Below, in pieces: positions 45,578 to 51,487 of a stretch of DNA of 64,000 nucleotides (position 1 is the first letter of the stretch; the number at the start of each line of letters is the position of its first letter). The position numbers were made by a program, and so were the translations under genes. This stretch comes from Rhodocyclales bacterium. Its GTDB lineage: Bacteria > Pseudomonadota > Gammaproteobacteria > Burkholderiales > Rhodocyclaceae. A model generated the notes under the pieces. It worked only from the letters and a program-made list of their open reading frames with translations, made no database searches and had not been told where the DNA came from. The DNA lies in NCBI GenBank assembly GCA_026399475.1, contig JAPLQY010000014.1, positions 1 through 64,000 of the forward strand, in the 5' to 3' direction.

Positions 45578-46765
45578 TTGGCTGGCGACAGCACGCGCAA
45601 GTTCATGGGCGTCTCGGCGCATCCTTTCTGGCTGGTCGGCTTCCGTCCATTTTTTTCGCTGGCCTGCCTCTCGGGACTCAGTTTGCCGCTGCTCTGGGTG
45701 ATGATTTATCTCGGCGCCTGGCCTGCGCCCGCGTCTTCCTTCGCGACGGTGCAGTGGCACGCCCATGAAATGTTCTTCGGCTTCGGCTGGGCCGTGCTCG
45801 GCGGCTTCCTGCTGACCTCGACCAAGAACTGGGTGCAGATTCGCGGTTATCACGGCGCTGCACTGATTTACCTGATGGCGGCCTGGCTGTTCGAGCGCGC
45901 TGGAATGTGGTTCGGCGGGCGCTGGCCCGTCTTCCTGTTTGAATTGTCGAACACGCTGTTCCTCGGCTCGATTGTCGCCATGCTGGTGTGGACCCTGGTT
46001 TGCCACCGCAAGGACGACAGCTACCGCGACAATTATTTCTTCCTGCTGATCCTCCCCGCCTTCCTGATCGCCAAGCAACTGATGCTGAGTGTCGATCACT
46101 TCCAGATCGGCATCAGCATGGCCACCGGCCTGTTCCGCGTGGCATTCCTGGTCATGCTGGAACGCACCCTGACCCAGTTCATGAAGGGCATATTCCAGAC
46201 GGACATCCTGCGCAATGCGGTGCTGGATCGCGCCATCAAGCTGCTCGGACTGCTGCTGGTTGGCGCCGGGCTGATGCCACCGCCGCTGGCCGGCTGGCTT
46301 TCATTGCTGCTGGCGCTGTTGCTGGCCGGCAGGTTCTTCTTCTGGAAGCCGCAACTGGCCATGCAGCGGCTCGATCTCGGTATCATGTACCTGGGCTACA
46401 TCGCCATCGTGCTGCAACTGCTGGTCGAGTTCCTCGGCCAGGTCGTGCAACCGGCATGGGTCGGCGCATTCTCGATGCATGTGTTCGCGCTCGGCGTCAT
46501 GGGCCTGATCATCCCCGCCATGCTGATTCGGATATCGAAGGGGCATACCGGCCGCAAAGTCGTCTTCGACGCCGGCGACAAACTCGTGCTCTGGATCATG
46601 ATCACCGCCTTTCTGTTGCGCGTCGTTGCGCCGCAGATCCATCCCGCGGCCTACGCCCTCTGGCTGGTCCTCGCCGCCGCCGGCTGGCTGGCCGGCTTCG
46701 GGATACTGGCGTGGCGCCTGATCCCCTTTCTGTTGCAAGCCAGGGTGGATGGCAAGGAGCACTAG
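45578..46765 (+). CDS. nnrS: NnrS family membrane protein (nitric oxide stress)
   Basis: A 395-residue protein with about twelve membrane spans, of the heme- and copper-containing NnrS family that protects against nitric oxide and iron nitrosyl stress. Conserved features are the N-terminal HPFWLVGFRPFFSLA, the WHAHEMFFGFGWAVLGGFLLT segment with His ligands near residue 58-75, and FSMHVFALGVMGLIIPAMLIRISKGHTGR near 300. The start is given as TTG 45578; ATG 45605 is equally possible. Its presence suggests exposure to nitric oxide or denitrification, though no reductase genes are in the window. Confidence 0.9.
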   Translation: MAGDSTRKFMGVSAHPFWLVGFRPFFSLACLSGLSLPLLWVMIYLGAWPAPASSFATVQWHAHEMFFGFGWAVLGGFLLTSTKNWVQIRGYHGAALIYLMAAWLFERAGMWFGGRWPVFLFELSNTLFLGSIVAMLVWTLVCHRKDDSYRDNYFFLLILPAFLIAKQLMLSVDHFQIGISMATGLFRVAFLVMLERTLTQFMKGIFQTDILRNAVLDRAIKLLGLLLVGAGLMPPPLAGWLSLLLALLLAGRFFFWKPQLAMQRLDLGIMYLGYIAIVLQLLVEFLGQVVQPAWVGAFSMHVFALGVMGLIIPAMLIRISKGHTGRKVVFDAGDKLVLWIMITAFLLRVVAPQIHPAAYALWLVLAAAGWLAGFGILAWRLIPFLLQARVDGKEH

Positions 46766-46938
46766 AGCCGGGTCGCAAGCTCTTCGACGATGACCGGCTG
46801 TCATGTCGAAAGCAGTACCAGCAATCGCCATCAGCATATTGCCTCGCGAATTGAATATCCATTGGCCTTCAACGGGAATTACAATCAACGTGGTTGTGAC
46901 GAGATTTCCGAAGATTCGACGCGAAGACAAACCCGTTC

Positions 46939-48642
46939 ATGAACGCACACAAAACCGCCAAGAGGCGCTCAGTTGCCCGATATCCCTGCAGTGCCGCAGC
47001 TTGGGCCATTGCGTCGATTCTGCTGCCGGGCTTTGCCACCTCCGCCAGCGCCCAGTCTCCTTCGATCGAATTCGAATCCCGCCAGAAACCTGAGGCGGCA
47101 CCCGTCACGCCCGTCCCGCTGGTCGATCGCAAGAGCCTCGCGGCACAGGTCTCCGGCTTCGACAAGGTCACCATCAAAGGCTTCCGGTTCATCGGCGCGC
47201 GCATCATCGCCGCCGAAACTTTGGCCGCGGAACTGGCGCCCTTTTCCGGTCGCGAACTGTCGGTCGACGATCTGTACCGCGCCGCGCTGGAGGTCGCCCG
47301 CAGCTACCTGCGTCAGGGCAGCATGGCGCGAGTCCGGGTTGCGGCGGTTTCTGTCGCCGACGGCATTGCCGAGATCGAGATCCAGGAACTGCGTGTCGGA
47401 CAGGTACGGGTTGAACTGCCTGCCGACACGCGCGTTGCACCGGAACTCGTCGAACGCTTCGTCACCCGCGGATTGGCGCCCGGCCAGCCTGTCCCCCTGG
47501 CGCGACTGGAAGACGCTATCGCGCTGCTCAACGGCCAGCCCGGGATTGCCGCCGCCATTGCCCTCGATCAGGGTAGGGGCGCAGACGAAGTGGATGTCAC
47601 TGTGCGCATCCAGGATCGCCCGCTGCTCTCGGGCCGAATGTCGCTCGATAACCACGGCCTGCGCGAGATCGGCCAGGATCGGCTGGGCCTGTCGCTGCGC
47701 GCGAGCAATGCCTTCGGCTGGGCCGAACGATTCGCCATCGACCTCGAGAAAACCGCCGGCAGCGAGCTGGTCGCCCCCTCGTTCAGCGTGGCGCTGCCGT
47801 CGGCCGGCATGCGCGCCGGCCTCGAAGCCACCCAGGCGAGCTATCAGGCCAAACGTGTCGGCGCGGCGCTCGAATTGAAGGGCGATTTCCAGCGCTGGAG
47901 GGCATTCCTGCAGCACCGCTGGTGGCAGGCGCCCGGCTTCGTCCTGAACGCCGATTACGCCCTGCTGCGCACGTCCTATCATGACGATTCGCTTTTCGGC
48001 GAACTGCGACGACGGCGCGTTTCGGGTGTCAGCCTCAATCTCGCCGGCCTGGCCAGGAGCGATAGCGCCCTCACCCGCTTCGGCCTCGACATCGAGCGCG
48101 GCACAACCGATCTCTCGGCCAATGCAGCCGATCAGGCCGCGGACGCAATTTCCGCAAAGATCCACGGCGGCTTCTGGAAGCTGCGCTGGAATCTTGGCCA
48201 CGAGCGCCCGCTGGGACCGGGCACGATCGTACTGCGCGCCCGCGGCCAATGGGCCGATCGCAATCTCGACGGAACCCAGCAATTCGCCCTCGGCGGCGTC
48301 GCGCAGGTACGCGCCTGGCCGACGGCCGAAGCGCTCGGCGACGGCGGCTGGATCGCCAGCGCCGAATGGCGGCAACCGGTCGCCGCCGACTTCGACGGTC
48401 GCCTGTTCGTCGATACCGGCAGCGTGCAGCGCAATGCGAAGCCCTGGGCCGACCAGCGCAATCGATATGAACTCTCGGCCGTGGGTGCCGGCCTGAGCTG
48501 GCGAATGCCGGAGAACTTCCGCTTCAGCACCGACCTTGCCCGTCAATGGGGCGGCAATGCAGGCCGCAATACCGACGGCACCGACAGCGACGGTCGCAAC
48601 AACCGCTGGCGCCTGTGGCTGGCCCTGAACCGCGAGTTCTGA
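46939..48642 (+). CDS. Two-partner secretion outer-membrane transporter (ShlB/FhaC family)
   Basis: A 567-residue TpsB protein. A signal peptide ends near residue 38, followed by POTRA-like domains (about 75-230: VTIKGFRFIGARII, then QELRVGQVRVEL) and a 16-strand barrel ending in LWLALNREF with terminal Phe. The barrel holds a conserved ShlB-type stretch GQWADRNLDGTQQFALGGVAQVRAWP near residue 440 (the VRGY-like motif is here VRAW). It exports TpsA proteins through the outer membrane in an unfolded state. The two small TpsA-like genes follow directly, so they are its likely clients. Confidence 0.92.
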   Translation: MNAHKTAKRRSVARYPCSAAAWAIASILLPGFATSASAQSPSIEFESRQKPEAAPVTPVPLVDRKSLAAQVSGFDKVTIKGFRFIGARIIAAETLAAELAPFSGRELSVDDLYRAALEVARSYLRQGSMARVRVAAVSVADGIAEIEIQELRVGQVRVELPADTRVAPELVERFVTRGLAPGQPVPLARLEDAIALLNGQPGIAAAIALDQGRGADEVDVTVRIQDRPLLSGRMSLDNHGLREIGQDRLGLSLRASNAFGWAERFAIDLEKTAGSELVAPSFSVALPSAGMRAGLEATQASYQAKRVGAALELKGDFQRWRAFLQHRWWQAPGFVLNADYALLRTSYHDDSLFGELRRRRVSGVSLNLAGLARSDSALTRFGLDIERGTTDLSANAADQAADAISAKIHGGFWKLRWNLGHERPLGPGTIVLRARGQWADRNLDGTQQFALGGVAQVRAWPTAEALGDGGWIASAEWRQPVAADFDGRLFVDTGSVQRNAKPWADQRNRYELSAVGAGLSWRMPENFRFSTDLARQWGGNAGRNTDGTDSDGRNNRWRLWLALNREF

Positions 48643-48704
48643 GCGGGAGTATCATCTGCCTTGTAGGCCGTACTGGCTGGTTCTGCCCGATGGAGAATTG
48701 CCTC

Positions 48705-49235
48705 ATGAAACTCCGGCACCTCGCGATACTTTCCTCCGCCGTTTGCATCGCCTTGCCTGCGTTAGCGGCTCCCACCGCGCCGGTCGTGGCAAGCGGCACC
48801 GCCACCTTCAATCAGCCCGGCAATGTCCTGACTGTTACCAACAGCAACGGCGCCATCATCAACTGGAGCAGCTTCAACATCGCGCCCGGTCAAGCCGTGC
48901 AATTCGTGCAGCCCTCGACATCCAGCGCGGTTCTCAACCGGGTAATGAATGACCCATCGGCCATCATCGGGAAGCTTAGTTCCAACGGTCGTGTCTGGCT
49001 GGTGAATCCGGCCGGCATCATCGTCGGACCTGGCGGCCGAATCAATACCAACGCCATTGTCAGGCTGCCCGCCCCGACTTCCGCGCTGACCCTGCCTCCG
49101 GGGGTGGCCACGGCCGCCTTGCCGTCACGGGCAGTTGCGCCCGCCGCCGGCCTGGTCAATGCAGGCCGCATGGTCGATGGCGCCGTCACGCTGCGCATGT
49201 CGCTGGTCGACGCGTCTCCGATCGTCCTGCGTTGA
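48705..49235 (+). CDS. Miniature TpsA-like exoprotein 1
   Basis: A 176-residue secreted protein. A signal peptide (MKLRHLAILSSAVCIALPALA) is followed by a TPS secretion domain fragment of about 100 residues with the hallmark segments NSNGAIINWSSFNI and NGRVWLVNPAGIIVGPGGRI, then a Pro/Ala-rich spacer and a C-terminal motif VDGAVTLRMSLVDASPI. It lacks the long beta-helix repeats that follow the TPS domain in haemagglutinins. GGAG nine bases before ATG 48705 supports the start. It follows the TpsB gene by 62 bases and is probably exported by it. Confidence 0.85.
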   Translation: MKLRHLAILSSAVCIALPALAAPTAPVVASGTATFNQPGNVLTVTNSNGAIINWSSFNIAPGQAVQFVQPSTSSAVLNRVMNDPSAIIGKLSSNGRVWLVNPAGIIVGPGGRINTNAIVRLPAPTSALTLPPGVATAALPSRAVAPAAGLVNAGRMVDGAVTLRMSLVDASPIVLR

Positions 49236-49270
49236 CCTGTGTGCAATCTCGGCCCGCCGTGGAATACACG

Positions 49271-50227
49271 ATGAAAACCCTGTTGATCAATCTGCTGGCA
49301 GGCACAATGGCCCTCGCCGGCCCTGCCTGGGCCGTCGACCTGCCGACAGGGGCCGCTGTTCAGGCCGGCTCGGCTACATTCAGCCAGGCAGGCAATGCCC
49401 TGACGGTGACCAACAGCAACCGCGCCATCATCAACTGGACCAGCTTCAGCGTCGGCGCCGGCGGCTCGGTCCAGTTCGTGCAGCCGGGCGCCAGTTCGGC
49501 GGTCCTGAACCGGGTCGTGGCCGCGAACCCGTCGCTGATTTACGGTCCGGTCACCTCCAATGGCCAGGTCTTCCTCGTCAATCCGAACGGGATTATTGTC
49601 GGGCCAAGCGGCAGGATAGATGCGGCAGGGATATTTCTTTCCACCGGCAATATTTCGAACGCTGATTTTCTGGGCGGCAGCATCCGCTTTGAGCCACCGA
49701 CCGCCAGCACTCCGATCGTCATTTCGGGCCGAGTTGAAGCCACAGACAGGCTGGACATCAAGGCGTCTTCCCTGGATTGTTCGAATTGCACACTTGTTGC
49801 ACCAACCATCAGTCTCGACACCGGAACTGCTCTACCGCCAACCCAAGTGCCTACGCTCCCAGTGATCCCCCCGGTGCTCTCACTTCCGGCCCTGCCCCCG
49901 ACCGGCAACATCACCGTCGGCGGATCGGTGACTCTGACGGCCGGGACTGTCAACATCCAACAAAGCACGCAGAAACTGCTGCAGCGGACCGGGGGGGCGA
50001 TTTCCCTCCGCAGTCCGGTGGCACCAGGCCCGATCGCCCCAATGCCTCAGGGAGCGTTGACTCTCACGGCCACGCCGCCCGCGACAAATGCGCCCGTGGT
50101 GGTGACAGCTCCATTGCCCGTGCGACGGGCAGCGCCGGCCGTCAGCTTGAATAGCGGCGGACTGGTGGATGGCGTCGTCACTGTGCGCATGTCGCTGGTC
50201 GACGCGTCGCCGATCACGCTGCGCTGA
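49271..50227 (+). CDS. Miniature TpsA-like exoprotein 2
   Basis: A 318-residue relative of the preceding protein. Signal peptide (cleavage after AWA near residue 21), TPS-like domain (SNRAIINWTSFSVGAG, NGQVFLVNPNGIIVGPSGRIDAAGIF), then a short extension with strand-like repeats (about 120-240; includes CSNC at about residue 176), a Pro/Ala-rich spacer and the same C-terminal motif VDGVVTVRMSLVDASPI. The final 25 nucleotides of shared coding sequence with paralogue 1 are identical. It lies 35 bases downstream of paralogue 1, so the three genes form an operon. Confidence 0.85.
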   Translation: MKTLLINLLAGTMALAGPAWAVDLPTGAAVQAGSATFSQAGNALTVTNSNRAIINWTSFSVGAGGSVQFVQPGASSAVLNRVVAANPSLIYGPVTSNGQVFLVNPNGIIVGPSGRIDAAGIFLSTGNISNADFLGGSIRFEPPTASTPIVISGRVEATDRLDIKASSLDCSNCTLVAPTISLDTGTALPPTQVPTLPVIPPVLSLPALPPTGNITVGGSVTLTAGTVNIQQSTQKLLQRTGGAISLRSPVAPGPIAPMPQGALTLTATPPATNAPVVVTAPLPVRRAAPAVSLNSGGLVDGVVTVRMSLVDASPITLR

Positions 50228-50281
50228 ACCGCTCGCGCAAGGCCGGTGCTCACGCGCCGGGCCGGGATCGCGATCCCTCCT

Positions 50282-51487
50282 TCAGTCCAGAAACCCCGCC
50301 AGCAGTTGATTCAGAAAACGTCGACCGCGTGGCGTGGGACGAATATGTCCCTCCACGGTCTCCAGCAGACCAGCACACCGCGCCGCCAGCGCTGGCGCTT
50401 CGATGGCGGAAAGCGGCAAACCAGTGCGTTCAGTAAATAGCCCGGGCAGGAAGCCCTCGTTCAGGCGCAACGCATTCATCATGAATTCGCCGGGCAGGTC
50501 GGCGCGCGCGACGGGCTGCTGCGTGCTGATGAAGTCGCCACGCGCCGCACCTGCCAGATAGGCGCGAGGATTGCGATGGCGCGCCTCGCGCCAGATCGTT
50601 TCGTGGTTCGACAGCTTGCTGTGCGCGCCGGCACCGATGCCGAGGTAATCGCCGAAGTTCCAGTAGTTGAGGTTGTGCTGACAGCGCTGGTCAGGCTTAG
50701 CGAAAGCCGATGTCTCATACTGGGTGAAGCCGGCGGCAGCGAGCGATGCTTCGACCATTTCCTGCATGTCGGCGGCCAGGTCATCGTCGGGCAAGGGGGG
50801 CGGCGCGTGGTGGAAGGGCGTGTTCGGTTCCAGCGTCAGGTGATAGGCGGAAACATGGCTGACCCCGGCGCGGATTGCCGTGGCGATGTCCCTTTCGGCC
50901 TCTGCCAGCGTCTGCCGCGGCAGCGCGTACATCAGGTCGAGATTGACGCGCTCGAAATGCTTCAGCGCCAGGTCGATGGCGCGATGCGCCTCGGCGCTGT
51001 CGTGGATGCGACCAAGGGCCGAGAGCTTGGCGTCGTCGAAACTCTGCACGCCGATGGAAAGCCGATTCACTCCGGCTGCGCGGAAGCCGGCAAACTTCGC
51101 GGCCTCGGCGGTGCCGGGATTGGCTTCCAGCGTGATCTCGGCGCCGGGATGCAGCGGCAGGCGCATGCGGATCGCGGCCAGCAGCGCATCCGCGGTTTCG
51201 GCGCGCATCAGGCTGGGCGTGCCGCCGCCGATGAACACGCTGATCACGGGGCGGTTCCAGATCTGCGGCAGCGCTGCTTCGAGATCGGCAATCAGCGCCG
51301 CGAGATAGGCCACCTCGTCGGCGTCCCCCGTGTCGCTGCGATATTCATGCGAATTGAAATCGCAGTAGGGGCATTTCCTGACGCACCATGGCCAATGTAC
51401 ATACAGCGCCAGCGGCGGCGGGGCCGTCAGTCCGGAACCCTCTGCAATCAGTGCGGGTGCGGCAGCGACCGGCTTGATCGGGATCAC
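50282..51487 (-). CDS. hemW: Heme chaperone HemW (radical SAM)
   Basis: A 401-residue radical-SAM-family protein with the cluster motif CVRKCPYCDFNSH near residue 33 (CxxxCxYC), GGGTPSLM near 86, and C-terminal HemN-like domain. HemW carries heme to respiratory proteins rather than catalysing coproporphyrinogen oxidation, and the pattern here with an HNxxYW motif (HNLNYWNFGDYLGIGAGAHS) is of HemW type. The start is GTG 51487, overlapping the rdgB stop codon (GTGA), so it is coupled to rdgB. Confidence 0.93.
   Translation of the reverse strand: MIPIKPVAAAPALIAEGSGLTAPPPLALYVHWPWCVRKCPYCDFNSHEYRSDTGDADEVAYLAALIADLEAALPQIWNRPVISVFIGGGTPSLMRAETADALLAAIRMRLPLHPGAEITLEANPGTAEAAKFAGFRAAGVNRLSIGVQSFDDAKLSALGRIHDSAEAHRAIDLALKHFERVNLDLMYALPRQTLAEAERDIATAIRAGVSHVSAYHLTLEPNTPFHHAPPPLPDDDLAADMQEMVEASLAAAGFTQYETSAFAKPDQRCQHNLNYWNFGDYLGIGAGAHSKLSNHETIWREARHRNPRAYLAGAARGDFISTQQPVARADLPGEFMMNALRLNEGFLPGLFTERTGLPLSAIEAPALAARCAGLLETVEGHIRPTPRGRRFLNQLLAGFLD

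Follow-up and report, generated by a model that had tools for sequence, protein, structure and literature searches.

A tpsB gene followed by two very small TpsA-like clients with a shared C-terminal tail: a possible genus-restricted variant of two-partner secretion

Two-partner secretion (TPS, type Vb) is described as exporting large proteins, and the TPS head of the exported TpsA is known as a signal and a folding nucleus. A locus in a Rhodocyclales bacterium raises the question of what a TpsB transporter would do with clients of only 176 and 318 residues. It lies in a 64,000 nt stretch of DNA (the window: positions 1 to 64,000 of the forward strand of contig JAPLQY010000014.1, assembly GCA_026399475.1) and consists of a tpsB gene followed by two small TPS genes, here called c1 and c2. 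The coordinates, reading frames and protein lengths given in a first-pass annotation of the window were all reproduced, as were the gaps of 62 bases between the end of tpsB and the start of c1 and of 35 bases between the end of c1 and the start of c2. In the interpretation preferred here, to which we assign a probability of roughly 0.4, the locus would be a genus-restricted variant of two-partner secretion in which TpsB exports mini-TpsA proteins and a C-terminal tail holds each client at the cell surface.

The transporter, described earlier as full-length, has 567 residues and a Pfam match to the ShlB barrel family (76.5 bits versus a cut-off of 22.7). POTRA_2 scored 23.0 bits, just under its cut-off of 24. 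A profile of the five TpsB orthologues described below matched CdiB (6wim, E 1.6e-6) among PDB chains and, over residues 75–150, the TpsB4 chain 2mhj (E 0.0034). Both clients carry the Pfam TPS domain (c1 70 bits, c2 103 bits, cut-off 33.5), and both exceed the cut-off of the NCBIfam filamentous haemagglutinin N-terminal domain. The earlier statement that each client holds a recognisable TPS domain is upheld for c2, but for c1 it has to be narrowed to roughly the first half of the domain. The NPNG motif of TPS heads (PMC5422565) is present in c2, and c1 has the variant NPAG. No toxin domain was found in the clients by Pfam at E values up to 1. Residues 170 and 173 of c2 (nt 49778–49789) form a CxxC pair (LDCSNC); the client of one related locus (G004, see below) has a similar CxxxC pair, while three others (G022, G007 and G025_c2) lack cysteine altogether.

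Relatives of the locus were sought in 31 genomes of the genus (taken as Sulfuritalea), own genome included. A scan with two peptide patterns of TpsB gave 29 matching stretches, of which 4 encoded a relative. Orthologues are present in four of the 30 other genomes (G025, 75% identity; G022, 73%; G004, 73%; G007, 57%), and the next-best match in the genus falls to 32%. All five loci have one or two small clients downstream of tpsB, seven in total: besides c1 and c2 there are proteins of 188 and 416 residues in G025, 339 in G004, 325 in G022 and 388 in G007, where a single frame encodes two fused TPS heads followed by one tail. The absence of a long beta-helix, proposed for the first two clients, thus extends to all five loci (176–416 residues), and so does the intactness of the frames, which is seen in 7/7 clients, each with an apparent signal peptide. 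The three-gene order had been expected to recur with intact frames in other genomes, and it is kept in G025 at the same chromosomal spot. The best TpsB match to plasmids among the matches listed was 32%, c2 had no match in phages, and the two peptide patterns found no TpsB relative in viral contigs.

The feature that joins the small clients is their C-terminus. All seven end precisely at the stop codon with a tail of about 21 residues (consensus LVDGxVTVRxSLVDASPIxLR), and 11 of 42 columns in the tail alignment are invariant. When at most 18 candidates were scored per genome, strong tail-profile matches (65.6–80.7 bits) were confined to the five locus-bearing genomes among 395 sampled from the family, and to own genome among 399 sampled from the order. 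Four weaker matches in the family (18.7–21.3 bits) and eight in the order (17.4–20.8 bits) covered the profile only in part, and within roughly 3 kb at each of the 12 loci the head profile detected no TPS head (E up to 1). Chance recurrence of the tail elsewhere was considered and rejected on these grounds. The tail had no match in Pfam or among PDB chains (E up to 1), is not present at the two long TpsA C-termini that were read, and contains cysteine in 0/7 clients. Over its last 20 codons the ratio of nonsynonymous to synonymous proportions (pN/pS) is 0.11–0.55 in 19 of 21 pairs, calculated without a neutral control; because the codons have changed in this way, the tail appears to have been kept as a peptide and not as a DNA repeat. 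Gene conversion between the tails of c1 and c2 was also tried as an explanation and is unsupported, because tail pS is equally low when the clients compared come from different genomes. Between head and tail lies a divergent linker, varying in length and composition among the clients, in which Pro, Gly, Ala, Ser and Thr make up 59–73% of residues versus 47–53% in the heads (6/7 clients, boundaries chosen by the analyst).

The first-pass annotation had suggested that the clients may be the secretion domain itself, in a putative role as small adhesin, toxin-like factor or coat subunit. They are indeed short TPS clients, but their plan is a signal peptide, a head of the EtpA/HMW1/HxuA class, the divergent linker and the invariant tail, and c1 has only about half a domain. 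From what is known of the family (PMC5422565, PMC6555100), such a client would be taken to the periplasm by the Sec pathway, its head would be bound by the POTRA domains of the adjacent TpsB and the protein passed out through the barrel, after which the short head would fold at the cell surface. The tail, free of cysteine, would then act as a retention segment that remains on or within the transporter, and the cell would display a short head in place of the usual long beta-helical fibre; adhesion or contact between cells may be the purpose. We infer retention from the strict C-terminal position of the tail, from the G007 client, which has two heads but one tail (a pattern to be expected if every polypeptide requires a tail of its own), and from the joint occurrence of the tail and this TpsB lineage in 5/5 loci. 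Secretion by this particular TpsB and a role in adhesion are likewise putative. Some TpsBs are stated in PMC5422565 to secrete more than one TpsA.

Several observations count against this interpretation. The anchor of HMW1 and HxuA includes a disulphide, and no tail has a cysteine. The locus occurs in only 5 of the 31 genomes, several of them incomplete. Whole clients are less constrained (pN/pS 0.44–0.74, 21 pairs) than TpsB (0.26–0.51, 10 pairs; Nei-Gojobori proportions), and the two tail pairs outside the range given above, at 0.79 and 1.00, both involve G025_c1. Two AlphaFold jobs gave unusable models (mean predicted local distance difference test, pLDDT, 35.8 and 34.1). Secretion of c1 and of G025_c1 is itself doubtful: a TPS domain of about 250 residues is given as the minimal secretion region (PMC5422565), and only some half of it is present in these two. 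If the interpretation is nevertheless true, the locus would show the smallest working client, would offer a full-length TpsA tractable for structural work with its own TpsB, and would let the question of how a TpsB keeps or releases its client be addressed through a segment of 21 residues.

An alternative fate for the exported protein, which we think unlikely, is release, with the tail serving as an assembly or capping strand that adds to the exposed edge of a neighbouring head, so that the heads build a surface fibre or coat. By eye, hydrophobic and polar residues alternate in part of the tail as they would in a beta strand, TPS domains are able to template folding in neighbouring molecules (ShlA and HpmA; PMC5422565), and one tail per polypeptide would suit such a scheme. 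The unusable AlphaFold models and the differing length and composition of the linkers tell against it. A second alternative, quite unlikely in our estimate, divides the labour: c2 would be the working client and the half-head c1 a periplasmic accessory, for example a plug or chaperone on the POTRA domains of TpsB. This would accommodate the recognisable head of c1 and of G025_c1 stopping about 12 residues past the NPxG motif, and the Pfam coverage of c1 from profile position 16 to 107 of 252; it fits poorly with the tail and apparent signal peptide that c1 and c2 have in common, and with the lack of a separate c1 in three of the five locus-bearing genomes.

It is also quite unlikely that c1 and c2 are truncated remnants of a long TpsA, or silent heads maintained as donors for recombination. 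The same genome does have full-length TpsA genes at other places, with one open frame on contig C14 encoding 2176 residues, so that long TpsA proteins and the small clients are encoded in one cell. Truncated-looking short TPS-head frames are also found in other genomes (of six examined, one adjoins a fragmented tpsB and two have no TpsB match), one small client has a head closer to long TpsA heads than to other small heads (G025_c2, see below), and the clients are under weaker constraint than TpsB. Decay, named in the first-pass annotation as an outcome that would refute it, was nonetheless rejected because all seven frames in five genomes are intact, with apparent signal peptides, and share a C-terminus that the two long TpsA ends read here lack and that has no other strong match in the 395 genomes; the constraint on the tail in 19/21 pairs and the gene order kept in G025 also speak against a relic. 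No more probable is a role of the small clients as trans-acting helpers that template, compete with or regulate a long TpsA such as C14. The kinship of c1 with C14 (below), the presence of other TPS genes in own genome and the templating of full-length ShlA and HpmA by TPS domains (PMC5422565) would favour it, but it leaves the invariant tail and the dedicated TpsB unexplained, and long TPS frames also occur in genus genomes without this locus.

HMW1 and HxuA belong to the second TPS family, and a C-terminal segment with a disulphide holds them in the TpsB pore (PMC5422565). On sequence grounds the heads of the small clients belong to the same class, as a profile of the seven clients matched five distinct PDB sequences, of EtpA (8cpk, 8vba), HMW1 (2odl) and HxuA (4i84, 4rm6), with E values from 2.6e-40 to 2.1e-28. 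At E 0.01 these were the only solved chains matched; Fha30 (1rwr) and HpmA265 (3fy3) were not among them. The small clients differ from these proteins in lacking a long beta-helical passenger, in their size and in numbering up to two per TpsB. Their tail is not the same anchor, because none has a cysteine. Tentatively, and with more doubt than attaches to the interpretation as a whole, the tail might be a new cysteine-free signal for retention or assembly, specific to one TpsB lineage, in which case the head would become the displayed product and different heads could be interchanged on a constant tail.

The history of the heads bears on that proposal. In the tree alignment the c1 and c2 heads share 51% identity, and they may come from different TpsA lineages. 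Residues 6–119 of c1 are 62% identical to the long C14 TpsA. In a FastTree analysis of a short alignment, c1 (win_c1) and G025_c2 grouped with long heads of the C14 type and G025_c1 with heads of the C73 type; a more careful tree did not resolve c1, G025_c1 and G007_C. Both trees contained 69 of 88 domains, after removal of duplicates and of ten loci repeating the small clients, plus 8 small heads. Approximately unbiased (AU) tests did not reject one clade of small heads (p 0.51 with 8 heads, p 0.42 with 6). For the five longer heads, analysed with domains of E <1e-15 and at least 230 residues (68 rows, the five included), the starred branches of a quick tree called for two origins, yet a tree holding the heads together has the higher likelihood, and one clade was again not rejected (p 0.695). 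The G025_c2 head is 73–76% identical to the 8 best long TpsA heads (213–226 columns) versus 35–46% to four other full small heads, which could mean either that its head was exchanged or that, of the lines from one ancestor, it has changed the slowest; sliding identity along the DNA revealed no clean crossover. Exchange of heads among clients is suggested, but head swapping is not claimed because the careful tree does not resolve and the AU tests do not reject one clade. The paralogy of c1 and c2 put forward earlier survives in the sense that a single origin is not rejected by these tests, but with heads that are 51% identical a duplication in place does not follow.

Other short or divided TPS systems provide partial parallels. 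Fha30 and HpmA265, fragments made for structural work (PMC5422565), resemble c2 in consisting of a head and little else, but they are pieces of long proteins of another TPS class, whereas the small clients are natural genes with a conserved tail. The tpsC cassettes of Neisseria are likewise short tpsA-related genes within a tps locus; according to PMC3848433 they are truncated at the 5' end and lack both signal peptide and TPS domain, whereas the small clients have a TPS domain and an apparent signal, and their constant part is the 3' end. Contact-dependent inhibition loci (cdiB-cdiA-cdiI) also pair a TpsB with an exported TPS-domain protein. Unlike them, the present locus has no Pfam toxin domain, and the next gene, presumably hemW-like, is convergent and not immunity-like. 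No description of such a mini-TPS locus was found among the open-licence papers listed, as judged by titles and the openings of abstracts.

The features of the locus are collected in Table 1. A GGAG stretch resembling a ribosome site precedes c1, and by eye the same stretch precedes the first client in G004, G022 and G025; it was not seen in that form upstream of the G007 client. Predicted promoters numbered 0 (0.6 in shuffled sequence) and terminators 3 (2.2 in shuffled sequence), and at gathering scores the window had no Rfam match.

Table 1. Features of the small-client TPS locus and its neighbours (window coordinates)
Feature	Position (nt)	Strand	Sequence	Basis
nnrS-like gene, left neighbour	45578..46765	+		putative name
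tpsB, ShlB/FhaC-family barrel and POTRA region, 567 residues	46939..48642	+		Pfam, profile search
Ribosome-site-like stretch, 10–13 bases 5' of the c1 ATG	48692..48695	+	GGAG	by eye
c1, small TPS client, 176 residues	48705..49235	+		Pfam, NCBIfam
c1 apparent signal peptide	48705..48767	+	MKLRHLAILSSAVCIALPALA	by eye
c1 half TPS head, PF05860 profile positions 16–107 of 252	48807..49052	+		Pfam
c1 conserved C-terminal tail	49170..49232	+	MVDGAVTLRMSLVDASPIVLR	alignment of 7 clients, profile search
c2, small TPS client, 318 residues	49271..50227	+		Pfam, NCBIfam
c2 apparent signal peptide	49271..49333	+	MKTLLINLLAGTMALAGPAWA	by eye
c2 TPS head, Pfam profile positions 4–185 of 252	49340..49975	+		Pfam
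c2 conserved C-terminal tail	50162..50224	+	LVDGVVTVRMSLVDASPITLR	alignment of 7 clients, profile search
hemW-like gene, right neighbour, convergent	50282..51487	-		putative name

A six-frame search of own genome (114 contigs, estimated contamination 9.08%) recovered four TPS domains, namely c1, c2, C14 and C73, the last in a frame of 644 residues that runs off the contig end. ShlB was likewise matched four times, by this TpsB and on contigs C73, C14 (where the end of the contig cuts it) and C65 (partial). The long TpsA of C14 (L089:850-7380) and one from G001 (L080:9902-14509) have similar C-termini, a Lys/Asp-rich stretch plus QKKVAQCS in which one Cys stands close to the end, unlike the tail of the small clients. 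Two further frames, of 580 residues in G009 (L075:6044-7786, minus strand) and 656 residues in G015 (L076:7262-9232, minus strand), each contain two TPS heads and share similar C-termini (GIAGVLVR....GQ). No TpsB match was found near them, within 14 and 16 kb respectively, and they may represent a further kind of short TpsA in the genus.

Short TPS frames also turned up in a sample of 377 genomes of the class, where at least 14 frames of fewer than 450 residues lie outside the window. Among the six examined, in addition to the three already mentioned, three run off a contig end. The other eight listed are minus-strand frames whose matches stop no more than 350 bases from the first base of the contig, and are probably cut for that reason. 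The frame beside the broken tpsB (L146, G815) encodes a TPS head of 205 residues and adjoins a tpsB-like stretch split over three frames; here real decay is likely.

The locus is flanked by genes that we take to be nnrS-like on the left and hemW-like on the right, and it occupies the same position in G022 and G025, although only the nnrS end is present on the G025 contig (L114) and about 2.1 kb of other sequence separates c2 from the hemW-like gene there. Its neighbours are lgt-like and purU-like genes in G004, and lolA-like and ftsK-like genes in G007, these names being our assumptions from the translations. Neither this TpsB nor the clients were detected (E 1e-10) in 20 further hemW stretches of the genus, which include the hemW regions of G004 and G007, where the locus is absent. 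With its differing neighbours and with nnrS-hemW gaps from which it is missing, the locus has therefore been gained, lost or moved within the genus. An nnrS gene is on the same stretch as hemW in 13 of the 20. The distance between the ends of the two alignments is 2 bases in G001, where the nnrS-like gene abuts the hemW-like gene with no TPS cassette between them, 22 bases in G024, about 0.6 kb in both G018 and G020, and 0.9–4.2 kb in the other nine. In the window the gap spans nt 46766–50281, and its content varies across the genus (window, L116-L135); in G003, for example, one of the gaps of 0.9–4.2 kb, it appears by eye to hold chemoreceptor-like and rhodanese-like frames.

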